Source: an uncultured Desulfuromonadales bacterium (GTDB taxonomy: Bacteria > Desulfobacterota > Desulfuromonadia > Desulfuromonadales > Geopsychrobacteraceae). From it: 63,131 nucleotides of DNA. Positions within the stretch are counted from its first letter, which is position 1; every line of letters begins with the position of its first letter. This document shows, one piece after another, positions 7,622-21,514 of the stretch. The stretch covers positions 1-63,131 of the forward strand of contig CALZHR010000021.1 in the NCBI GenBank assembly GCA_945787335.1, read 5' to 3'. Under the pieces are notes generated by a model. The model ran no database searches, was not told the DNA's origin, and saw only the letters and a list, made by a program, of their open reading frames with translations. Both the position numbers and the translations under genes were made by a program.

Positions 7622-10207
7622 ATGAACTCGACCCGTTTTAAAAAAAGTCGTCCCTGCCCCGAGCTGACCGAGGCGCCGCCGCTGCAGATGGATCCGGTCA
7701 ATCTGGCCAAGGATTTTCGTCATTACTATGCCCACCACCTGGGGCGTGACAAGCACTGCCGCCTGACCCACTATGCCTACGAAGCCATGGCCCTGGTGGT
7801 GCGCGACCGGCTGATGGAGCGCTGGAAGTCGACCCGCTACGCCTACGAAGAGTCCGACTGCCGCCGGGCCTATTACCTCTCGCTGGAATATCTGATGGGG
7901 CGGTCGCTGGGGAATTCGATCCTCAATCTCGGCGTGGTCGATGAGGTCAGCAAAGCCCTTTACGGGCTCGGCCTGGAACTGGAGGAGCTGGCGGAAGCGG
8001 AGCAGGATGCGGGCTTGGGCAACGGCGGCCTCGGCCGGCTGGCGGCCTGCTTCCTCGACAGCTGCGCGACCCTGCAGCTGCCGGTCCAGGGGTACGGTAT
8101 CCGCTATGAGTACGGCATGTTCCGGCAGCGGCTCGACAATGGCTATCAGATCGAAGAGCCTGACCACTGGCTGGGGGCGGTGAACCGCTGGGAGGTCGAA
8201 CGCCCTGAATACACCCAGCGGGTCAAGTTTGGTGGCCGCAGCGAGCCATACCGTGATCACAGCGGAACCCTGCGCTGGCGCTGGGTTGAGACCCGCGACG
8301 TGCTCGCCATCCCCTATGATGTGCCGGTTCCCGGCCATCAGAACGGCACGGTGAACACCCTGCGCCTGTGGAAGGCGGTGGCAACCGCCGAGTTCGACCT
8401 CGGGGAATTCAACGCCGGCGACTATCCCGGTTCGGTGGCGGCCAAGAACGAGGCGGAAAAAATCACCATGGTCCTCTACCCCAACGACAGCAGCGAGAAC
8501 GGCAAGGATCTGCGGCTTCGGCAGCAGTATTTCCTCGCCTCCGCCAGTCTGCAGGATGTCATGGAGAAGTGGAGCAAGATCCAGGGGAACCAGCTCAGCC
8601 GTTTCGCCGAAAAGAACTGTTTTCAGCTCAACGATACTCACCCCAGCTGCGCGGTTGCGGAGCTGATGCGGTTGCTGATCGATGAACAGGGGATGACCTG
8701 GGACCAGGCCTGGGAGACCACCCAGAAGACCATGGCTTACACTAACCACACCCTGCTGCCGGAAGCGTTGGAAAAGTGGCCGGTGCGGCTGTTCGAGCAG
8801 CTGCTGCCGCGCCTGCTCGATATCATCTACGAGATCAACGCCCGCTTCCTCAAGCAGGTGGCGCAGCGCTGGCCCGGCGACCTGGAGCGGCAGCGGCGCA
8901 TGTCGATCATCGAGGAAGGCCCGGAACCGCAGGTGCGCATGGCCTACCTGGCGATCGTCGGCAGCTTTTCGGTCAACGGGGTCGCCGAGCTGCATTCACA
9001 GCTGCTGCAGCAAGGGCTGTTCAAGGATTTCTACGAACTCTGGCCGGAGAAGTTCAACAACAAGACCAACGGCGTCACCCAGCGGCGCTGGCTGGCCTGG
9101 TGCAACCAGGGCTTGAGCGAACTGATCAGCGAGCGGATCGGCGAGGGCTGGGTGACCGAACTGGAACAGCTCAGCCAGCTCAAACCGCTGGCCGAGGACG
9201 CTGAATTCCAGGGGCAGTGGCAGCACGTCAAGCACCAGAACAAGCTGCGCCTGGCGGAACTGGTCAGGGCCGAGTGCGGCGTCGCGTTCGCCCCTGAAGC
9301 GATGTTCGATGTCCAGGTGAAACGGATTCACGAGTACAAGCGCCAGCTGCTCAATATCCTGCATGTGATCCATCTCTACGATCGGATCAAGCGCGGCGAT
9401 ACCGCCAACTGGACGCCGCGCTGCGTGCTGATCGGCGGCAAAGCGGCGCCCGGCTATGCTATGGCCAAGCAGATCATCAAGCTGATCTGCAATGTCGCCG
9501 AGGTGGTCAATAACGATCCGGCCGTCGGCGATCTGCTGAAAGTGGCGTTCATCCCCAACTACCGGGTCTCGGCCATGGAAGTGATCTGCCCCGGGACCGA
9601 CCTGTCGGAGCAGATTTCCACCGCCGGCAAGGAAGCTTCGGGGACCGGGAACATGAAATTCATGATGAACGGCGCCCTGACCATCGGCACCCTGGACGGA
9701 GCGAATATCGAAATCCGCGAAGAGGTCGGCAGCGAGAACTTCTTCCTCTTCGGCTTGACCGCCACCGAGGTCGAGGTGGTGCGGCGCGACTACAACCCGG
9801 CCGGCTTCATCAACGCCGACGAAAATCTCTACCGGGTGATGCAGCTGCTGCGCAGCGGTCACTTCAACCAGTGTGAAGCGAACATTTTCGATTCGATCAT
9901 TCAGGCGATCTACAGTCCGCACGACCCCTGGTTGGTCGCCGCCGATTTCAGCAGCTACGTCGCCGCGCAGCAGCAGGCCGCGCGGGCCTACCAGGATCAA
10001 CACGGCTGGACGAAGATGAGCATTCTCAACAGTGCGGCCAGCGGCAAGTTCTCCACCGATCGCACCATGCAGGACTACAATCGCGACATCTGGCGACTGG
10101 AGCCGGTGTCTGCGATGCAGGTCACCGGCGGCGCGCCACGGCTGCCGCGACGGATCGAAGAACTGGTCAACGGTGAGCCACAGAAAGCCTTTGCCCGCAC
10201 AGATTAA
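7622..10207 (+). CDS. glgP: Glycogen/starch alpha-glucan phosphorylase
   Basis: An 861-residue glycosyltransferase family 35 enzyme that releases glucose-1-phosphate from glycogen or maltodextrin. The pyridoxal-phosphate signature EASGTGNMKFMMNGAL is intact with the Schiff-base lysine at 679; other family blocks include the glycine-rich DAGLGNGGLGRLAACF segment and KRIHEYKRQLLN. Length is near the family norm (about 815-840) with a slightly longer N-terminus; the chosen ATG has no strong ribosome binding site, and the ATG at 7688 is an alternative. No other glycogen genes adjoin. A strong terminator follows the stop. Confidence 0.93.
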   Translation: MNSTRFKKSRPCPELTEAPPLQMDPVNLAKDFRHYYAHHLGRDKHCRLTHYAYEAMALVVRDRLMERWKSTRYAYEESDCRRAYYLSLEYLMGRSLGNSILNLGVVDEVSKALYGLGLELEELAEAEQDAGLGNGGLGRLAACFLDSCATLQLPVQGYGIRYEYGMFRQRLDNGYQIEEPDHWLGAVNRWEVERPEYTQRVKFGGRSEPYRDHSGTLRWRWVETRDVLAIPYDVPVPGHQNGTVNTLRLWKAVATAEFDLGEFNAGDYPGSVAAKNEAEKITMVLYPNDSSENGKDLRLRQQYFLASASLQDVMEKWSKIQGNQLSRFAEKNCFQLNDTHPSCAVAELMRLLIDEQGMTWDQAWETTQKTMAYTNHTLLPEALEKWPVRLFEQLLPRLLDIIYEINARFLKQVAQRWPGDLERQRRMSIIEEGPEPQVRMAYLAIVGSFSVNGVAELHSQLLQQGLFKDFYELWPEKFNNKTNGVTQRRWLAWCNQGLSELISERIGEGWVTELEQLSQLKPLAEDAEFQGQWQHVKHQNKLRLAELVRAECGVAFAPEAMFDVQVKRIHEYKRQLLNILHVIHLYDRIKRGDTANWTPRCVLIGGKAAPGYAMAKQIIKLICNVAEVVNNDPAVGDLLKVAFIPNYRVSAMEVICPGTDLSEQISTAGKEASGTGNMKFMMNGALTIGTLDGANIEIREEVGSENFFLFGLTATEVEVVRRDYNPAGFINADENLYRVMQLLRSGHFNQCEANIFDSIIQAIYSPHDPWLVAADFSSYVAAQQQAARAYQDQHGWTKMSILNSAASGKFSTDRTMQDYNRDIWRLEPVSAMQVTGGAPRLPRRIEELVNGEPQKAFARTD

Positions 10208-11999: not shown

Positions 12000-13271
12000 T
12001 CAGTCTTCGACCTGCTGATATTCATTCCGGAGGATTCTCAGCACGACCAGCCAGATTGCACAAATGCAGAGCACCAGCCAGCCCAGCTGCGGCAGGGTGA
12101 GTGGGGTCGGCAGCCAGCGGGTGAATATCAGGATCAGCACCGAACCGAAGATCTTGAACAGCCGGTAGCCGAACATGTCGATCCAGGCCTTGGCCTGATA
12201 GATCAGCACCGAGTCGATCGGCACATAGAGCAGCTCCTTGGAGGCGCGGTTGATCGAATAGGAGAGGCCGCGATCACTGACTTTGGCGGCGGAAATCAAC
12301 AGCAGCCCCGGCGCGAACATGAAACCGAGGGTAAAAAGAGTGATCATCAGCGGCTGGATCAGCAGCCCGGCGATGACGCCGAGGGTCCGATGGATCAGCG
12401 GCGTCAGGAACAGGTTGACCAGGATCGAAATCAGCCCCATGACGCTGAAAAAGAGCGAGAGATAAGCGGTGCGTTCATCGAGGATCAGGTAGCTGGTTTC
12501 CACCGTTTTCATGAACTGGAATTCGATCAGCGGCGAGGCCAGCTGGGCCAGCAGCAGGATGGCCGCGATCAGCAGCATGAAGCGGCTCTTTTTGAACCTC
12601 TGCCAGCCCCCCTGGTACTTGACTTGCTGCCCCAGATCCTGAACTTCACAATAAAGCCCGAGCCAGCCCATCAGCCAGGTGAGCACAAACAGCAGCAGCA
12701 GAATCCCGGCCGCGACCAGCAGCAGATCAGGTGTCTGGAGCGGCGTCTGTTCCAGCACCAGCGCCGCCGCGCCGCCGCCGAGCACCCCGCCGACCAGCCC
12801 GCCGGTGCCGATAAAGCCGTACCAGCCTTTGCCCTCCTTGGTGCTGTAGATCGAGTTGGTCAGGCTCCAGAACTGCTCGACCATCAGCACGCCGAGGATA
12901 TCGACAAAAATATAGAAGGCCGTCGCCAGGGCCGGACCGGGAGACTCCAGCAGAATGCGGAATGCGACCAGGCAACCGGCCATCACCAGGCAGGTGCCGA
13001 GCACCAGGAGCACCCGGCTGCAGCGTTCGACCAGCCGATGATAGGCGCCGATGAACACTGCCATGGTGAGCGCGGTGCCGATCCAGACATAAGGCAGCTG
13101 ATCGGCGCCGAGATATTCGATGAACAGCGAACGGCTCGACGGCTTCAGGTGATAGAGCGCCATGATGATCAGCAAAAAATTTGCGAACAAAAAAGCCGCA
13201 CGGATGCTGAGAGCCCGGTGGGCCGGATAGCGCTGATTGCAGCGGTTTTCTTTTTCTTCTGATTCTACCAT
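12000..13271 (-). CDS. TLC-family (ATP/ADP translocase-like) transporter
   Basis: A 423-residue polytopic membrane protein with about 11-12 hydrophobic helices. Long family-typical blocks such as SINRASKELLYVPIDSV followed by YQAKAWIDMFGYRLFK place it in the nucleotide exchange (TLC/Npt) family rather than ordinary MFS. The start is the ATG of MVESEEKEN; a GTG further out would overlap the divergent gene at 13309. Family members in intracellular parasites exchange ATP for ADP, but the role in free-living bacteria is not established. It starts 37 bases from the divergent serine hydrolase gene and lies in the same locus as an exported ATP-dependent dikinase, which makes nucleotide export an attractive hypothesis. 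Confidence 0.78.
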   Translation of the reverse strand: MVESEEKENRCNQRYPAHRALSIRAAFLFANFLLIIMALYHLKPSSRSLFIEYLGADQLPYVWIGTALTMAVFIGAYHRLVERCSRVLLVLGTCLVMAGCLVAFRILLESPGPALATAFYIFVDILGVLMVEQFWSLTNSIYSTKEGKGWYGFIGTGGLVGGVLGGGAAALVLEQTPLQTPDLLLVAAGILLLLFVLTWLMGWLGLYCEVQDLGQQVKYQGGWQRFKKSRFMLLIAAILLLAQLASPLIEFQFMKTVETSYLILDERTAYLSLFFSVMGLISILVNLFLTPLIHRTLGVIAGLLIQPLMITLFTLGFMFAPGLLLISAAKVSDRGLSYSINRASKELLYVPIDSVLIYQAKAWIDMFGYRLFKIFGSVLILIFTRWLPTPLTLPQLGWLVLCICAIWLVVLRILRNEYQQVED

Positions 13272-13308
13272 TTGCTTTTTTGTCCGTTTTCCAGTATGAT
13301 TCGCAAAT

Positions 13309-14187
13309 ATGAACACTATTATTAAAAATATTTTAACTTTCTTGCTGGTTCTCGCGGTTGCCGTTCCGCCGGTCCTCAGTTCTCAGCAGCCCCCCGTTCT
13401 GGCCGCCTGCTACAACAACCGTTTGCAGGAAGGATTGGAAACCTGCCTGCGTGAGCTGAAGCTGGACAAGGCCGCCGAACGGAAGAAATTAAGTGTCGCC
13501 CTGGTCGACATCACCGACCCTGAGCAGCCGCTGCTGGCGGCGATCAACGGCGACCGGATGATGTATGCCGCCAGCCTGCCGAAGATCGCCATTCTGCTCG
13601 GCGCCTTTGAGCGGATCGCCCGCGGCGAGATGCAGCTTGACGCAGCGACTCAGGAACAGCTGACGCGGATGATCCGCAATTCCTCCAATCGCGCGGCGAC
13701 CGAGATGCTCAACCGGGTCGGCAAGACCTTCCTGGCCGATCTGCTGCAGTCGCCCAAGTACCGTTTGTACGATCCACAGAATAATGGCGGACTTTGGGTT
13801 GGTAAAGAATACGGTAAGGCCGGGGCCTGGAAGCGGGACCCGCTGGCTAACCTATCACATGGTGCCAATGCATTCCAAGTCGCACGTTTTTATTACCTGC
13901 TGGAGACCGGCCAGCTGGTTTCTCCCGAAATGAGCCGGGAGATGAAAGAGATCCTCAGCAAGCCGGCCATTCAGCACAAGTTCGTCAAGGGGCTCAAGTC
14001 CCGCCCCGACGCCGAGATCTACCGCAAGTCCGGCTCCTGGCGGCAGTACCACGCCGACAGCGCCATCATCGAGCATGGCGACCGCCGCTACATCGCCGTG
14101 GCTCTGGCCGAAGACGCCAGGGGCGGGGAGTGGCTCAGTCGCCTGATCCTGCGCCTGGATGACCTGATCCGGCAATTTCACTCCTGA
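13309..14187 (+). CDS. Exported serine hydrolase, class A beta-lactamase-like fold
   Basis: A 292-residue protein with a clear signal peptide (hydrophobic 8-24, cleavage near residue 25). The three penicillin-recognising motifs are present: SxxK as S89-L-P-K92, SxN as S125-S-N127, and KSG at 240-242. A class A omega-loop glutamate is not obvious, so deacylation of beta-lactams is doubtful; a role on peptidoglycan or another acyl substrate is possible. The ribosome binding site is weak. Its 3' end overlaps the convergent second serine hydrolase gene by 53 bases. Confidence 0.8.
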   Translation: MNTIIKNILTFLLVLAVAVPPVLSSQQPPVLAACYNNRLQEGLETCLRELKLDKAAERKKLSVALVDITDPEQPLLAAINGDRMMYAASLPKIAILLGAFERIARGEMQLDAATQEQLTRMIRNSSNRAATEMLNRVGKTFLADLLQSPKYRLYDPQNNGGLWVGKEYGKAGAWKRDPLANLSHGANAFQVARFYYLLETGQLVSPEMSREMKEILSKPAIQHKFVKGLKSRPDAEIYRKSGSWRQYHADSAIIEHGDRRYIAVALAEDARGGEWLSRLILRLDDLIRQFHS

Positions 14188-15448
14188 TTTTCTGCACCTC
14201 TTCATAGCGCCTCTGCAACAGCCGATGGATGCGCATCGCCAGCGTCTGGTGCGCCACCGCCGAGTTCACGCGCAGGACGTTCGAGGTGATCACCACCAGA
14301 TAGTGCAGCAGGCCTTCCGTCTGCGGTTCTTCAACGATCGCGACAGAGTTCAGCAGATTCAATCTGTTCCCGATGTATTTGCCGCATTCGAAGTCCGGTT
14401 CCGGTTCGCAGCTGTAAAGCGAGCCCGATTTGAAGTAGACCGCGGAGTGCTTCAGCGCCGGGTGCGAAGCGTAGCGGATCCGCTTCTCGGTCATATAGAG
14501 CAGCCGTTTCAGCTCGAGACTGGAAAAAGGGTCGATCAGCCGGCCCTGCTCCACGCGCAGCAGCAGGGTTAAAAAACTGCGCGCGTTCGCTCTGCTGCTG
14601 CCGCCCGGTACCAGCGTCTTGCCCTTCCAGGTAAAAAATCCCCCCTGACGGATCTGCTCCGGGTCCAGCCCGTTGCGGCGCATCGGTTCGTGCAGGCTGT
14701 TGATCAGCAGCCGCATCAGCTCCCTTTTGCCGGTCTTCTTGAAAAAATCCTCAGCGGTCTGTTCCGCGACCGGATACTCCGCTTGAAAACGCACCATCAG
14801 CAGGTATTCGCGCAGCACCATGGCGGCGGCTGCGTTGGAGCTGGGGGAGAGCATCCAGTCGAGCCAGCTGTAGAGGTTGCCGCTGTCGCCGGTGCGGATC
14901 TTCCGGTAAGTCATCTGTTGCCGTTCGGCATCCCAGAAGGGCACCTTGTGGTGATCGCTGATAATGAACTGATTGGCGGTGATCCAGCGTTCACGCAGCA
15001 GCCGCTTGCGCGCCGCGACATCGTCCGGATAGAGGTCGGCCAACGCCTGGAAAACGCCCACGGCAATCAACACCTTGCCGAGGCTGCCCGGGTTGAAATT
15101 GAGATCCCCCTGGTGCTCGGCAAACACCGGCTGCTCGGGATGGCTCAGGTCAAGGACTGAGAAACTGTAGTTTTCCTGGTCCGCGCCGAGAAAGGCGAGA
15201 ATGTCATCGGTCAGCTGCGGGTCCGGTTCGGGGAGCTCGAAGTTTCGTTGGTCGGTCAGGCGCAGCTGAACCTGCTGCAGCGGCAGCAGGGCGCCGGGAA
15301 ACAACTTGCGGCCGGGCGTTTTCCCCTCCTGAATCCGCTGATAGCCCTCAAGCCGGATGATACCGGTCTCCTCGCCAGCATCCAGCGGGTAGCCGAACAG
15401 ACTGTTCGTGACCGCCAGGGTCAGAATAAAACTGATGATCAGCCGCAT
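14135..15448 (-). CDS. Second exported serine hydrolase, beta-lactamase-like
   Basis: A 437-residue protein with an N-terminal signal peptide (MRLIISFILTLAVTNSLFG). Catalytic motifs: SxxK at S122-L-G-K125, SxN at S203-S-N205, and KSG near residue 350. It is longer than usual because of an N-terminal region of about 90 residues. The stop of the upstream dikinase and this ATG share a base (TGATG), and AGGAG is eight bases upstream, so the two are translationally coupled. Together with the opposite-strand hydrolase this forms an unusual pair of related enzymes that overlap tail to tail. Confidence 0.78.
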   Translation of the reverse strand: MRLIISFILTLAVTNSLFGYPLDAGEETGIIRLEGYQRIQEGKTPGRKLFPGALLPLQQVQLRLTDQRNFELPEPDPQLTDDILAFLGADQENYSFSVLDLSHPEQPVFAEHQGDLNFNPGSLGKVLIAVGVFQALADLYPDDVAARKRLLRERWITANQFIISDHHKVPFWDAERQQMTYRKIRTGDSGNLYSWLDWMLSPSSNAAAAMVLREYLLMVRFQAEYPVAEQTAEDFFKKTGKRELMRLLINSLHEPMRRNGLDPEQIRQGGFFTWKGKTLVPGGSSRANARSFLTLLLRVEQGRLIDPFSSLELKRLLYMTEKRIRYASHPALKHSAVYFKSGSLYSCEPEPDFECGKYIGNRLNLLNSVAIVEEPQTEGLLHYLVVITSNVLRVNSAVAHQTLAMRIHRLLQRRYEEVQKIRSEIAGSGHPGAGSGD

Positions 15449-18399
15449 CACTCAGGCTCCTGCGGAATTATTGCCAGATCCACGTCGGTTGTATGCGACG
15501 TCACCGCGGCATCGAGTCCGGCCAGGAACAGGTCGTTTTTCACCCGCTTGCTCTCCAGCAACGGGCGGATCTGGAACAGCACGAACTGACCATCCAGAAA
15601 GCCGAACTCGATGTCGGCCGGTTTGCTCTGTCCCTGGTCATCCTGCAGGCTCGGGAAGCGGGCCGGGAGCAGCCCGGCCATCTTGCGCAGCTGGGCGATT
15701 TCAGGCTCCGTCACCAGCTGCTCCGGTGCATCTGCCGACACTTTCTGGACGCCGCCGGTCGGCACCAGAATCCGTTTTTCCGCCGCGCTCGCCTGAGCGA
15801 GCAGGCGGGACTCACCGCTGCGCACGTCAATCAAGATTTCTTCCGCCCGCTGGCCGTTGACCGCGCCGCCGACCCCTTCGTTGGTGGCGACATGCAACAG
15901 GTTCCGGTCACCACTGACCAGGTCGGCAGTCGCCATCACTCCCGACTTGTCCGCCGGTACGCTGAGCATCAGCAGCACCGAGGCATAGACATGCTCCGGG
16001 TCGCGCATATGCGCCTGCCGCCAGCTGAAGGCGCGCTGGCTGAAGGGGGACGCCCAGACCTTGCGGATAGCGGTGACGATGTTATCGAAACCGACCACAT
16101 GCGGGACGGTCTTGTTCAACCCGGCGCCGGTGAAGTTCGGCAGGTCTTCGACGTTGGTGTCACTGCGGACAAAGACCCCGAAGCTGCCGGGGGCGCCGAA
16201 CTCGGCGGCCAGCTTTTCGCGCAGTTCGCTAAGGAAGCTCTGCGGCAGGGGGGCGGTTTCGATCTGCTGCTGCAGCTGGGCGAGGAATTCGCTGGTCTGT
16301 ATCTCCCTGGTCGCGGGGTCGGCGATCCTTCCCAGGCGATAATAGTTGGCCCGCATCCACTCGAACAGGCTTTGGCCGTCCGGGGCCTGCGTCCGGTCTA
16401 GCAGCTGGCGGAAACGGCCGAAGGGGATCACCAGCGCGTCCGGGATCAGCCCGGCGTAGAGTTGTTTCAACTCCCCCAGATTGGCTCCCTTCGGGCCGGC
16501 AATCCGCCCGGAATCGGCGGCGCTGATCTGCGTCAGGTTGAGAATTTCGGTCTGCTCCAGGGCGAGTTTGTCCAGGTCGGGATCGATCAGAAAGTCGCTG
16601 CCGGTCTGTTGCCGGTTGAAATGCTGCTGCCAGGCGGCGGAGTCTTCTTCAATCCGCACCACCCCGCCCGGGCTGACCGCCAGCACGATCACTTGACCGG
16701 CCTGTTCGGCCAGTTGCGGCAGCAGCTGTTCGCTGACCGCCAGGTTCGGAATGCCGAGGTTGCGGGCCAGCAGCTGGATGTGTGACAGGGTGTTGCCGGC
16801 GCCGCGGGTCAAAATACCGGCGACCGGCGGCAGCTCGGCCACGGTTTCCGGCAGCAGGTAGATGCCGTCGGGCCGGTACGGGTGATTATGGGGATCGCTG
16901 ACCAGCTCCAGCCGGCCGCGCGCCAGTCCCGGGTTGAGCGGCTGCAGGCCGGCGGTGCTGCGGCCAAACAGCTGATGGTCGACCCCGCGCAGGCGCTGGC
17001 TGTCCTGCTGCAGGCTGTCGATCAACAGGGTAATCGGCAGCAGCGGGCTGGCGCGCAGGCGCTCCTGAAGAAAGCTGTTGAATTTCGGATCAAGCCGGGC
17101 CAGGTGACTGATGCTCTCATCGAAGTGATAGCGCAGGCTGTTTTCCACCCAGCGGCTGAGGCGGCTGAGCTGGTCGAGCTCGCGCTGGTAAACGTAGCTC
17201 GGCAGCGGCCTTTGCAGCAGCTTTTCGATCGCCTGCAGCTGGCTGGCCCACTGCCGGTCGGAGAGGAAGCCGATCCCGTAGAGGGCGTTTAGGCCCTGTT
17301 CGATCCAGGCCAGCCGCTGCCGTCGACTGGCTTTCGGCAGTTGACTGACCAGCAGATTGGCGCTGCTGTAGAATTCATGCTCCAGGTCGAGGCTCAGGTC
17401 GAGCCAGTTCAGCTTCTGCCGGTTACCGACCGCCCGGGACAGTTCGCTGCGACTGCGGAACAGCAGTCGGCTGGCGCGGGAGAAACGGATGCTGGCGGAG
17501 AGCTCTGCCGCCGCGCCGTCCTCGCGTCTGACCAGCCCCTTGGCCAGGCGCGGGTCGCGGCTGATGCCCAGCTGATAGGCCTGATTGAGCGGGTCGCTGT
17601 GCGGTTTGGTGACCTGCTCGATCAGCTCGACCAGTTCCAGGTACTCCTCCTGCAAGTCTTCCGAGCCCAGTTCGGCATGGCGGCGCACCCGGTCGGCGTC
17701 GGCCGGGTCGGGCCGGGTGTGCAGCTTGATCCGCAGCTGCGTGAAGGTCGGGTCGAACTCTTCTATCTCCAGGGCCAACTGGCGCATTTCGAGCAGCGGG
17801 GCGTGCTGGCGGCCGTGCGGCAGCAGGCGGACCGCTTCGCGCAGCAGCAGGAAATCTTTTTCCATTATCTGCGGTTGTTCGAGCAGGCCGAGCAGCAGCG
17901 CCTCGCCGTGCCAGTTTTCGTCCTCGGCCTGCAGGGCGCCGCGGTAGTAGCGCGCCCGGCGGAACAGCCAGCCGTCGTCGGCGTCGATCAGGAACTGTTC
18001 GAGCATGATCTGCTTAAGCTGTTGCGGCCAGTCGGCCCGGGTGTAGAAGCTCTCCGACCAGAGATCGGCCAGCAGGGTGGCGACCAGGTAGTTGTGCTGG
18101 CGCAGCAGCTTGACCCGGTCGGTCCACTCCCCATGCTGGACCCCGCCGCCAAGCTCACTGCAGGCATAGGCCTTGGGCGGCAGGATGCTGCCGTCGTTAC
18201 AGAACCAGCGGATCCGTTTGAACGGACCGCGCGGGCTCTTTTTTATCTGCTCGATCCAGCTGCGCAGGGTTTCGCTGTCGGGCAGTGGGAGCCGCTCTGC
18301 GGCAGGCGGTGGAGGGTCGACAGCAGTTTGTGCGAGCGATGGTTGCCAGGTGATAAGGAGGCACAGGAGCAGGGCGAAAGCGGTTTTGGTGGGTGTCAT
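15448..18399 (-). CDS. Exported dikinase: phosphohistidine domain followed by PPDK-type ATP-grasp (GWD-like order)
   Basis: A 983-residue protein with a strong signal peptide (MTPTKTAFALLLCLLITWQ, cleavage near SLA-QT). Residues about 30-500 are helical and unrecognised. A swivelling phosphohistidine domain (about 505-625) holds the likely phospho-acceptor H540 in NTLSHIQLLARNLGIP. A PEP/pyruvate-binding ATP-grasp domain (about 645-960) follows, with GPKGANLGEL, VRSDTNVEDLPNFTG, SGVMATADL and the terminal IEFGFLDGQFVLFQIRP, all close to active homologues. PpsA and PPDK have the ATP-grasp domain first; this reversed order is that of plant glucan, water dikinase. GGAGG precedes the ATG. The substrate is unknown. 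An exported ATP-using enzyme is odd, since the periplasm lacks ATP; the nucleotide carrier at 12000 may be the answer. Confidence 0.8.
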   Translation of the reverse strand: MTPTKTAFALLLCLLITWQPSLAQTAVDPPPPAAERLPLPDSETLRSWIEQIKKSPRGPFKRIRWFCNDGSILPPKAYACSELGGGVQHGEWTDRVKLLRQHNYLVATLLADLWSESFYTRADWPQQLKQIMLEQFLIDADDGWLFRRARYYRGALQAEDENWHGEALLLGLLEQPQIMEKDFLLLREAVRLLPHGRQHAPLLEMRQLALEIEEFDPTFTQLRIKLHTRPDPADADRVRRHAELGSEDLQEEYLELVELIEQVTKPHSDPLNQAYQLGISRDPRLAKGLVRREDGAAAELSASIRFSRASRLLFRSRSELSRAVGNRQKLNWLDLSLDLEHEFYSSANLLVSQLPKASRRQRLAWIEQGLNALYGIGFLSDRQWASQLQAIEKLLQRPLPSYVYQRELDQLSRLSRWVENSLRYHFDESISHLARLDPKFNSFLQERLRASPLLPITLLIDSLQQDSQRLRGVDHQLFGRSTAGLQPLNPGLARGRLELVSDPHNHPYRPDGIYLLPETVAELPPVAGILTRGAGNTLSHIQLLARNLGIPNLAVSEQLLPQLAEQAGQVIVLAVSPGGVVRIEEDSAAWQQHFNRQQTGSDFLIDPDLDKLALEQTEILNLTQISAADSGRIAGPKGANLGELKQLYAGLIPDALVIPFGRFRQLLDRTQAPDGQSLFEWMRANYYRLGRIADPATREIQTSEFLAQLQQQIETAPLPQSFLSELREKLAAEFGAPGSFGVFVRSDTNVEDLPNFTGAGLNKTVPHVVGFDNIVTAIRKVWASPFSQRAFSWRQAHMRDPEHVYASVLLMLSVPADKSGVMATADLVSGDRNLLHVATNEGVGGAVNGQRAEEILIDVRSGESRLLAQASAAEKRILVPTGGVQKVSADAPEQLVTEPEIAQLRKMAGLLPARFPSLQDDQGQSKPADIEFGFLDGQFVLFQIRPLLESKRVKNDLFLAGLDAAVTSHTTDVDLAIIPQEPE

Positions 18400-18476: not shown

Positions 18477-19271
18477 TTATCCGGACAACTGTTTCGGCAG
18501 CAGCCAGCTGAGCAGAAACAGACCGCAGGCGGCGACCACGATCGAGGGTCCGGCCGGGGTGTCCCAGCGGAAGGAGCCGTAGAGCCCGCCGCCGACCGCC
18601 AGGCAGCCGATCAGGCTGGCCAGCAGCGCCATCAGCTCCGGGGTTCTGGCGAAGCGGCGGGCGGTGGCGGCCGGGATGATCAACAGCGAGGTGACCAGCA
18701 GCAGCCCGACCACCTTCATCATCACCGCCACGCTCAGGGCGATCAGCGCGAGAAAGGCCCAGTTGATTCGATCGACCGGCACCCCTTCGACCCGCGCCAG
18801 GTCTTCGTGGATGGTGATCGCCAGCAGCGGCTTCCAGAGCCAGAGCAGCCCGGTCAGCGCCAGTCCGCCGCCGGCGAAGATCCAGCCGAGATCGGCCGTG
18901 CCGATGGCGAGGATGTCGCCGAACAGGTAGGCGAGCAGGTCGACGCGGATCCCCTCCATGAACGCCAGCGCCACCAGCCCGACGGAGAGCGCCCCGTGGG
19001 AGAAGATGCCGAGCAGGGTGTCGCTGGACAAAAGCTTTTGCCGCTGACCGAAGAACAGCAGCACCGCCAGCAACTGGCAGATCAGCAGGATGCCGAAGGT
19101 CAGGTTGAGCTGCAGCAGGAAGCCGAAGGCCACGCCGAGCAGCGCCGAGTGGGCCAGGGTGTCGCCGAAATAGGCCAGCCGCCGCCAGACGACGAAGGAA
19201 CCGAAGGGCCCGGCCACCAGGGCGACGCCGAGGCCGCCAAGCAGGGCGCGCAGCAGGAAATCATCGATCAT
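18477..19271 (-). CDS. znuB: Zinc ABC transporter permease ZnuB
   Basis: A 264-residue inner-membrane protein with about eight helices and the ABC-3 family signature ([15 protein letters not shown], and [18 protein letters not shown]-type segment near residue 190). It forms the channel of the high-affinity zinc importer with ZnuC and ZnuA. The start codon overlaps the znuC stop by four bases (ATGA), so translation is coupled. Controlled through the Zur box upstream of zur. Confidence 0.92.
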
Positions 19272-20017
19272 TGGCAGGCTCCATGCTCAGCCGGATCATC
19301 GTGGCGATGGCTGCGGTCGTGGCTGTAGACCGCCAGGTGCTGCACTGCCAGCGGCCCGAACAGCTCCAGGTAAGCCGGGTCGTTGGTGACCGCCTCCGGG
19401 GTGCCGCTGCAGCAGATGTGGCGGTTCAGGCAGAGCACCCGGTCGGTGGCGGCCATCACCAGGTGCAGGTCGTGGGAGACCATCATTACCGCGCAGTTGC
19501 GCCGTTCGCGGATGCGGGTGATCAGCTGGTAGAGCTCGACCTGACCATGGACGTCGACCCCCTGAACCGGCTCGTCCAGCACCAGCAGGTCGGGATCGCG
19601 CATCAGCGCCCGGGCCAGCAGCACCCGCTGCAGCTCGCCTCCGGAGATGTTCTGCAGCGGCGCATCGATCACCTCGGCCGCGCCGACTTCTTTCAGCAGC
19701 GGCAGGATCCGCTCAGTTTTTTTCCTGCCGGCCATGCTCAAAAAGCGCCGGACGGTCAAGGGAAAGGTCGGGTCGATATGCAGCCGCTGCGGCATGTAGC
19801 CGATATGCAGCCCCGGCCGGCGGTAGACGGTTCCGGAGCTGGCCGGCAGCAGCCCGAGGGCGATCCGCACCAGGGTGGTCTTGCCGGCGCCGTTCGGGCC
19901 GATGATGGTGAGGATCTCCCCGGCCTTGAGCTGCAGGTTGATCTGCTGCAGCAGCTGGCGCGCCCCTTGGAACTGGTTGATATCGGTGAGCTCGAGAAGA
20001 TAATCGCTGCCGTCCAT
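19268..20017 (-). CDS. znuC: Zinc ABC transporter ATPase ZnuC
   Basis: A 249-residue ABC ATPase with intact Walker A (GPNGAGKTT), signature ([14 protein letters not shown]), Walker B ([12 protein letters not shown]) and the switch histidine (MVSHDLH). It powers zinc uptake through ZnuB. The ATG at 20017 is preferred over a GTG seven codons earlier because AAGGGG precedes it and it avoids overlap with zur. It lies 11 bases after the zur stop, giving the operon zur-znuC-znuB. Confidence 0.92.
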
Positions 20018-20028
20018 GCCCGCCCCTT

Positions 20029-20508
20029 TCAACGACACCTGGGGCAGAGCCCCATGATTTCGACGGTGTGCCGGCGCGGCGTGAAGCCGGAGCTGGCGGC
20101 GCTCTGTGCGATGGCACTGGTGATCGCCGGCACGTCGAGTTCGGCGAGGGACCGGCAGGACTCGCAGATCAGGAACTGGCCGTCGTGCGGCTCCCCCGGG
20201 TGGGCGCAGCCGATGTAGGCGTTGAGCGAGGCGATGCGGTGCACCAGCCCCATCTGCTGGAGGAAGTCGAGGGCCCGGTAGACGGTGGGCGGAGCAGTGC
20301 GGCCATCCTGCTGCAGCAGTTCCAGCAGTTCGTAGGCGCCGACTGGTTTATGCTGCTGCCAGACCAGCTCGAGGACCCGGCGGCGGATGCTGGTAAAACG
20401 CTGCCGCTGCCGCTGGCAGAGCGCCTCGGCGCTGGCGAGCGCCTCGTCGATGCAGCTCTGGTGGTGCGGTTCCGGGCAGCTGAACGGGTTGGGCAAGGGT
20501 TCGGGCAT
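20029..20508 (-). CDS. zur: Zinc uptake regulator Zur (Fur family)
   Basis: A 159-residue Fur-family repressor: winged-helix DNA-binding half ([18 protein letters not shown]) and a C-terminal metal-binding half with CX2C pairs (CESC and terminal CPRC) for the structural zinc. Assignment to Zur rather than Fur rests on its place at the head of znuCB, opposite znuA, with a Zur-type box between. GGAGA lies eight bases before the ATG. It should repress both directions when zinc is ample. Confidence 0.9.
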
Positions 20509-20538
20509 AAATTGTCTCCGGGAGACTTGAATTATGAT

Positions 20539-20558
20539 AATGTTATATTATAACGTTT
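20539..20558. promoter_or_regulatory. Zur box between zur and znuA
   Basis: AATGTTATATTATAACGTTT contains the perfect palindrome GTTATA-T-TATAAC and matches the known enterobacterial Zur consensus (TGTTATANTATAACA) at nearly every position. It sits between the divergent zur and znuA start codons and could control both. Confidence 0.88.
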
Positions 20559-20599
20559 TAGAAGACGACGTCAAATTCATGCTTACGGAGTTTCAGCTG

Positions 20600-21514
20600 A
20601 TGAGAAAATCCCTTTGTCTCGGCCTGTTTTTCCTGCTGTCTGCCGGCAGCGCCTGGGGTGCGCCGCGGGTGGTGGTCAGCATCAAGCCGATCCACGCCCT
20701 GGTGGCGGGGGTGATGCGCGGTGTCGGTGAGCCGCAGCTGCTGATCGAGGGGGGCGGCTCGCCGCACGGCTATGTGCTGCGTCCTTCCGAAGCACGGGCC
20801 CTGTCTCAGGCCGAGCTGATCATCTGGGTCGGCCCGCAGCTGGAGAGCTTTCTGCAGAAGCCGTTGCAGACTTTGGGGCGTTCCGCGCGGCAGCTGGAGC
20901 TGGCCGAGGTGCTGAAACCTCAGCTGCTGCCGCTGCGGGAAAATGGCCATTGGGACGAGCACGAGGAGCACGCTGGCGAAGGGGAGCATGGCCATCCGCT
21001 GGCCGGCAACCCGCATTTCTGGCTCGATCCGCTGCTGGCGCAACGGGTGGCCATTGAGGTCGCGACCTTGCTCGGCGCGCTCGACCCGCCGCAGCGGGAG
21101 GTCTATCAGCGCAACGCCGAGCGGCTGCAGCAGCGGCTGACCGAGCTGCACAGCCAGTTGCAGCGGCGGCTGGCCCCGGTCGGGGAGATCCCCTACCTGG
21201 TGTTTCACGACGCCTACCCGTACTTCGAAAAGGCGTACGGGCTGCGGGCGATCGGTTCGATCAGCCTCAATCCGGAGCGCAAGCCGGGCGCCCGGCGGAT
21301 TCTGCAGATGCGCGAGAAGATCAGGCAGCTGCAGGCGCGCTGCGTGTTCAGCGAACCGCAGTTCGAGCCGCGCCTGGTGGCGACGATTATCGAAGGGACC
21401 GGCGCGCGGACCGGCGTGCTCGATCCGCTCGGCGCCGACCTGCCGGCCGGGGAGGAGAGCTATTTTCTATTGCTGAACCGCTTGGCGGACAACCTGCTGG
21501 AGGGGTTGCGTTGA
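20600..21514 (+). CDS. znuA: Zinc ABC transporter substrate-binding protein ZnuA
   Basis: A 304-residue periplasmic protein with a signal peptide (MRKSLCLGLFFLLSAGSAWG). The flexible His/Glu-rich loop typical of ZnuA is at about 117-134 (HWDEHEEHAGEGEHGH), and zinc-binding histidines occur in NPHFWLDP and the FHDAYPYF segment. It captures Zn2+ for ZnuBC. ATGs further upstream in frame would extend past the signal peptide; the chosen start has ACGGAG nine bases before it. Confidence 0.92.
   Translation: MRKSLCLGLFFLLSAGSAWGAPRVVVSIKPIHALVAGVMRGVGEPQLLIEGGGSPHGYVLRPSEARALSQAELIIWVGPQLESFLQKPLQTLGRSARQLELAEVLKPQLLPLRENGHWDEHEEHAGEGEHGHPLAGNPHFWLDPLLAQRVAIEVATLLGALDPPQREVYQRNAERLQQRLTELHSQLQRRLAPVGEIPYLVFHDAYPYFEKAYGLRAIGSISLNPERKPGARRILQMREKIRQLQARCVFSEPQFEPRLVATIIEGTGARTGVLDPLGADLPAGEESYFLLLNRLADNLLEGLR

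Follow-up and report, generated by a model that had tools for sequence, protein, structure and literature searches.

The four genes at positions 12000-18399 of the window (the whole stretch of DNA analysed here, a 63-kb contig, C21, of an assembly split into 277 contigs and judged Desulfuromonadales-like from its relatives) encode a TLC/NTT-type nucleotide carrier, two exported SxxK serine enzymes (SH292 and SH438) and an exported dikinase (DIK), and, as far as genome comparison can tell, form a discrete, co-inherited system. We consider it reasonably probable that they constitute one extracytoplasmic phosphoryl-transfer system, in which an ATP-fed DIK would modify an envelope substrate together with the SxxK enzymes. 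What the sequences themselves establish is the co-inheritance of the four genes, export signals on DIK and on both serine enzymes, intact catalytic residues in the dikinase and the serine enzymes, and a carrier of the TLC/NTT family. As a system, although not as single protein families, the set has no known counterpart that we could find, and our search of the open-access literature, with subscription papers outside its scope, returned no description of it. The interpretation offered in an earlier note on this DNA is partly supported. Its main proposal, that a nucleotide carrier serves a dikinase located outside the cytoplasm, is strengthened by the co-occurrence of the genes and by the refilling of the carrier slot by different NTT lineages; the proposed acceptor (a glycan or a polymer of the envelope) and the proposed transport direction are still inferred.

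The positions of all four genes agree with those reported earlier. The carrier (423 aa) is encoded on the reverse strand at 12000..13271. It most likely starts at the ATG at 13271, a position conserved in relatives, which leaves a divergent gap of 37 bp (13272..13308) before the start of SH292, and this gap is likely to serve both genes as a promoter region. SH292 lies on the forward strand (13309..14187), and SH438 and DIK on the reverse strand (14135..15448 and 15448..18399, respectively). The stop of DIK and the start of SH438 overlap as TGATG at 15446-15450, which confirms the coupling of the two genes that had been pointed out; an overlap of 1-4 bases recurs in 33 of the 54 loci in which both genes are seen. 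Because this overlap is real, the start of SH438 is most likely the ATG at 15448, not the GTG at 15451, from which the residue numbers used below are counted. A gene for glycogen phosphorylase is indeed present nearby (7622-10207), as the earlier note had stated, and falls outside the conserved unit; glgP does not recur beside the cassette in relatives, and the suggested link to glycogen was dropped on that ground. On the other side, DIK is adjoined by a zur-znuABC-like zinc uptake set (18477-21514, named by eye from sequence), which is not conserved in relatives either and was rejected as a part of the cassette.

The strongest evidence that the four genes belong together comes from their distribution. 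Searching genomes for co-occurrence of a signal-peptide dikinase with TLC carriers had been proposed as a check, and the outcome was very strongly positive in two classes, genomes with dispersed genes included. In a sample of 274 genomes of Gammaproteobacteria, DIK was found in 27, all of which have SH438 and some NTT (27/27 each), with SH292 in 26/27 and a cassette-type carrier in 24/27. Among the 247 genomes without DIK, SH438 was found in one (a relic), SH292 in none, a cassette-type carrier in one and any NTT in 39 (Fisher p ~4e-30 for the co-occurrence). The single genome with a carrier and no DIK, G508, holds an apparent relic of the cassette (L161:5144-8076), in which the carrier is kept, SH438 and SH292 are weak or partial, and no DIK was found. 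The pattern in a sample of 277 genomes of Desulfuromonadia is similarly sharp: a close carrier is present in 10/11 genomes with DIK versus 0/266 of the others, the best carrier score in these 266 being 97 bits as opposed to at least 377 bits in carrier-positive genomes.

Conservation of the neighbourhood extends well beyond close relatives. Within the same class, the set is kept at every homologous locus with enough contig, and an alignment-based GTDB-wide scan yielded 63 loci in Desulfobacterota, Gamma- and Zetaproteobacteria, Burkholderiales and Acidobacteria; a single-protein scan of GTDB contigs gave no match, probably owing to an overly narrow choice of peptides. The linked cassette occurs in Desulfobacterota, Gamma-, Zeta- and Betaproteobacteria and in an Acidobacterium; most loci preserve the set, some with the gene order seen here and others with it rearranged. 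Such recurrence in several proteobacterial groups and outside them excludes chance as an explanation. Furthermore, four genomes (G282, G478, G467 and G278) have the components on separate contigs and one (G286) has them ~30 kb apart, and since all components are nevertheless present in each, physical linkage is not enough to account for the distribution. No other recurrent neighbour family was detected at the cassette, the next family being found in 8/66 loci. Co-divergence was pronounced for DIK and SH438 (Mantel rho 0.66, null maximum 0.31), whereas it was weaker for the other pairs, with SH438/SH292 below the null maximum; accordingly, we do not claim it for all four genes. A role in antiphage defence or a phage origin was rejected because there was no PADLOC or PHROG match.

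DIK (983 aa) consists of a predicted Sec signal peptide (about residues 1-23; 18331..18399), a mainly helical N-domain (residues 30-476; 16972..18312), a swivelling phosphohistidine domain (about residues 485-597; 16609..16947) and a PPDK-type ATP-grasp domain (residues 633-952; 15544..16503), all encoded on the reverse strand. The ATP-grasp domain scores 112.1 bits with PPDK_N (PF01326; cut-off 27), a model that 24/24 homologues match as well. The phosphohistidine model PF00391 (PEP-utilizers) gives a weak, partial match of 19.9 bits at residues 515-568 of the window protein, below its cut-off of 23.1, and is matched in 24/24 homologues. The predicted catalytic histidine, H540 (codon 16780..16782, reverse strand), which is located in LSHIQLLARNLGIP, is invariant in 51/51 aligned homologues with identity down to 35%, as are K637, R745, T764, E931, Q943 and R945. 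Both this invariance and alignment to PEP synthase (PEPS) indicate that the nucleotide-site residues K637, R745, E931, Q943 and R945 are intact. The AlphaFold2 model (mean pLDDT 88) comprises the helical N-domain, the His domain and the ATP-grasp domain. The modelled ATP-grasp domain matches rifampin phosphotransferase (RPH; 5hv1) with Z 35.2 and rmsd 1.9 over 311 aligned residues and PEP synthase (2ols) with Z 33.9 and rmsd 2.2 over 304, and the His domain matches that of RPH with Z 10.2 and rmsd 2.8 over 106. These results bear out the earlier description of a signal-peptide protein with an intact phosphohistidine domain and PPDK-type ATP-grasp domain. DIK is thus placed, by sequence comparison, in the PPDK_N/phosphohistidine dikinase superfamily, and dikinase activity is predicted.

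Within this superfamily, DIK resembles several enzymes without coinciding with any of them. Plant GWD and PWD share with it the C-terminal order of a phosphohistidine domain followed by ATP-grasp, and by analogy dikinase chemistry would be expected. The designation of DIK as GWD-like holds for this domain order but fails in other respects: the GWD1 phosphohistidine model (GWD1_pHisD, PF22973) reaches 12.7 bits on the window protein against a cut-off of 27 and matches 7/24 homologues weakly (best E 0.0044), no starch-binding (CBM45-type) Pfam match was found in the N-domain of the window DIK or the 24 homologues scanned, and this N-domain is a different, helical one. Because both the GWD phosphohistidine model and the starch-binding modules were missed, we do not file DIK as a GWD; it also differs from GWD in being bacterial, exported and accompanied by a dedicated carrier and SxxK enzymes. 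RPH and the two-component small-molecule dikinases HpeHI/PpsAB are similar to DIK in the ATP-grasp fold and the swivelling His domain. In RPH, the beta-phosphate of ATP is transferred to the histidine and then to the acceptor, with AMP and Pi as products (PMC4844700), and AMP is the main product of HpeHI (PMC12167813); by analogy, the same conversion of ATP to AMP and Pi would be expected for DIK. However, RPH has the order ATP-grasp, acceptor (RIF-binding) domain, His, whereas that of DIK is acceptor-candidate N-domain, His, ATP-grasp; moreover, DIK is exported, its acceptor domain is unrelated, and the NCBIfam RPH model gives 98.6 bits against a cut-off of 999. PEP synthase and pyruvate phosphate dikinase (PPDK) combine ATP-grasp and His domains, which have the same catalytic residues as those of DIK, but the domain order of DIK is reversed, DIK is exported, and there was no Pfam match to a PEP/pyruvate-binding barrel in the window DIK or 24 homologues, the protein ending (residue 983) soon after the ATP-grasp domain. 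By domain order, DIK is neither an RPH nor a PEPS.

The PigC and RedH models also match the ATP-grasp part of DIK, and SxxK enzymes are by their chemistry acyltransferases. DIK could, then, use its fold in the manner of these proteins, as an ATP-dependent ligase or activating enzyme, with the SxxK enzymes transferring the activated acyl group and no stable phosphate left on the acceptor. We regard this as quite improbable because the PigC and RedH matches are confined to the ATP-grasp domain and are weaker than those of the PEPS and RPH models, and the N-domain is unrelated. As to the N-domain itself, the model obtained by folding it alone is mainly helical (pLDDT 90); comparison with PDB folds gave nothing significant (best Foldseek E 0.35), and the best VIA-align Z, 8.1 over 104/447 residues, is in the chance range for helical proteins. 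We assign no fold to this modelled domain, and the missing match does not show that the fold is new. The domain contains the invariant pair C67/C80 along with the invariant polar residues Q88, H89, E134, R206, R223, K225, H227, D234, R317 and R382, and because an acceptor site would hold many such polar residues, the N-domain is a candidate for that site.

Several features point to a location outside the cytoplasm. An N-terminal hydrophobic segment (KD >= 1.8) is present in 51/51 DIK, 42/42 SH438 and 34/34 SH292 sequences; at KD >= 2.0, it is still found in 49/51 DIK sequences, versus 4.5% of internal windows. The Sec signal call for DIK is a heuristic one, based on hydrophobicity, a cleavage-like motif (50/51) and the lipobox (0/51). 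Mature DIK has exactly two cysteines in 35/51 homologues (the invariant C67/C80) and mature SH438 in 36/42 (C348/C356, also invariant), and the other PPDK_N frames of the same genome have 4-9. A lone conserved cysteine pair is what a periplasmic disulfide would be expected to look like. Given the signal peptides and the invariant cysteine pairs, a periplasmic location is indicated. Against the use of ATP by DIK there stands the general view that the periplasm contains none.

The carrier matches PF03219 with 60 bits against a cut-off of 21, its family profile matches solved ADP,ATP carriers (9j3n, E 1e-36; 9j3j, E 1.3e-26), and K361, D365 and R370 are invariant. Membership in the TLC/NTT family, as stated in the earlier note, is thus clear at the level of profiles, and nucleotide exchange is predicted. 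The NTTs of plastids, Chlamydia and Rickettsia belong to the same family, but the cassette carrier is found in free-living hosts, is dedicated to an exported enzyme and probably works in the direction out of the cytoplasm. A tree of 68 NTTs, built by a quick method, unites 37 cassette carriers (support 100), and the DIK-linked carriers of L055/L059/L080, of L052/L067/L068 and of L072 and the NTT-HEAT-like proteins of L146/L147/L153 fall into other NTT lineages, the starred branches requiring the cassette label to have changed at least four times. The DIK-linked carriers therefore appear to come from at least four NTT lineages, the exact count being unsure because at some of these loci the usual carrier is accompanied by an NTT-HEAT-like protein and some branches are long. 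With at least four lineages represented, selection seems to preserve nucleotide transport as such, and the tree is most simply read as showing a requirement for a nucleotide carrier, with replacement by other NTT lineages over time.

Release of ATP by bacteria is reported in published work, and an exported DIK might use such leaked or scavenged outside ATP, the carrier being linked to it for an independent reason. Given the strict co-occurrence, which includes dispersed genomes, and the fact that other NTT lineages have repeatedly taken the place of the carrier, we consider this highly improbable. Reactions of the PEPS/PPDK type are partly reversible, and DIK might also run in reverse, using a phosphorylated compound of the periplasm, together with AMP and Pi, to make ATP that the carrier would import; alternatively, the carrier might move another nucleotide or a product, in either case supplying no ATP. 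The substrates and the direction of transport do vary among NTTs (PMC5381601). This scheme seems rather unlikely, however, because a PEP-binding barrel was found in no scanned DIK member, phosphomonoester donors are poor ATP makers, and the serine enzymes would be left without a role. Supply of ATP to DIK by the carrier remains the preferred reading. Two points weigh against it: hardly any NTT of a free-living bacterium has been characterised (PMC5381601), and a distant NTT that was assayed moved no nucleotides. Long NTT-HEAT-like frames adjoin the cassette or lie near it (L146:15370-17889, L147:568-2790, L153:1-1518 and L040:5223-7898), two of them in tandem with the normal carrier. A separate, widespread NTT group without DIK is present in Gammaproteobacteria and Desulfuromonadia (L162-L176), and a PPDK_N match near a second TLC in G350 (L166) was set aside as it looks like an ordinary PEP synthase.

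The two serine enzymes share with the Beta-lactamase2 (PF13354) proteins the S-x-x-K, S-x-N and K-S-G motifs as well as export. SH292, the second exported serine hydrolase of the earlier description, has the class A beta-lactamase fold by its match to PF13354 (73 bits, cut-off 22), and its motifs, S89xxK92, S125-S-N127 and K240-S-G242, are conserved in 34 homologues. SH438 is at the threshold of this model: the window protein scores 21.2 bits, and 42/42 homologues match at E <= 0.1 (best 1.3e-10); its motifs S123xxK126, S204-S-N206 and K341-S-G343 are conserved in the homologues. It differs from Beta-lactamase2 proteins in its much greater length and its cysteine pair, and the alignments of SH438 and SH292 contain no obvious invariant Glu that might act as the class A general base. 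Three Mariprofundus loci (L069, L070 and L082) have two copies of SH292 per cassette.

The beta-lactamase fold family of these enzymes, along with the proximity of the DIK ATP-grasp domain to RPH, PEP synthase and HpeI in both fold and profile, would also suit a small-molecule acceptor. DIK would then be a periplasmic equivalent of the cytoplasmic RPH and HpeHI, inactivating or trapping an antibiotic-like or aromatic compound, and the beta-lactamase-fold enzymes would act on the same class of compounds. We find such a role unlikely. The apparent lack of the general-base Glu argues against it, and the cassette has no resistance-type neighbours. No plasmid copies were found either: among 72,556 plasmids, there was no full-length DIK (matches were to the ATP-grasp region only) and no SH438, and plasmid-borne spread was rejected on these grounds. 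Moreover, four genes stably inherited across proteobacterial classes would be more in keeping with a core function in the envelope. Because D-Ala peptides, or compounds that mimic them, are the substrates of SxxK enzymes with the SH438/SH292 fold, the most likely acceptor would be an envelope polymer, for example, peptidoglycan or an attached glycan or peptide; peptidoglycan-linked material specifically is a tentative first guess.

Taking these lines of evidence together, we propose a mechanism in which the carrier, in the inner membrane, would send ATP out of the cytoplasm and take back the spent nucleotide, either ADP or the AMP left by the dikinase reaction. On the periplasmic side, the beta-phosphate of ATP would be moved to H540 by the ATP-grasp domain of DIK, with release of AMP and Pi; the His domain would then swivel to the large N-domain, which would pass the phosphate to an acceptor that SH438 and SH292 make, trim or recognise. 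We give roughly even chances to the broader proposition that bacteria of several phyla perform periplasmic ATP-driven covalent phosphorylation by means of an exported dikinase and a dedicated nucleotide exchanger, which supplies this enzyme with ATP and recovers the spent nucleotide, and that they modify peptidoglycan or another envelope polymer with two SxxK enzymes, in what would be the first functional context for the NTTs of free-living bacteria. If this is the case, phosphoryl energy would cross the inner membrane in some bacteria, although the periplasm is taught as ATP-free, and a new envelope modification would be defined. The NTT carriers of free-living bacteria, the function of which is an open question (PMC5381601), would acquire a testable role. 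The question is directly testable because about 10% of the 274 sampled genomes of Gammaproteobacteria have the system and there seems to be a cultured host of the cassette, Sinimarinibacterium sp. CAU 1509 (L066).

Some loci depart from the common organization. In two gammaproteobacteria (L051:12817-16095 and L060:12835-16782), a gene for a repeat-type lipoprotein of ~900 aa, which by eye resembles the TPR proteins of PEP-CTERM systems, is located between DIK and SH438, and the carrier and SH292 are found elsewhere. The genome G478, which also holds a normal set, contains a second, divergent DIK (L160:4698-8945, contig C179; 588 bits, ~31% identity) with a divergent SH292-like gene (28%) on the opposite strand, possibly a paralogous system.
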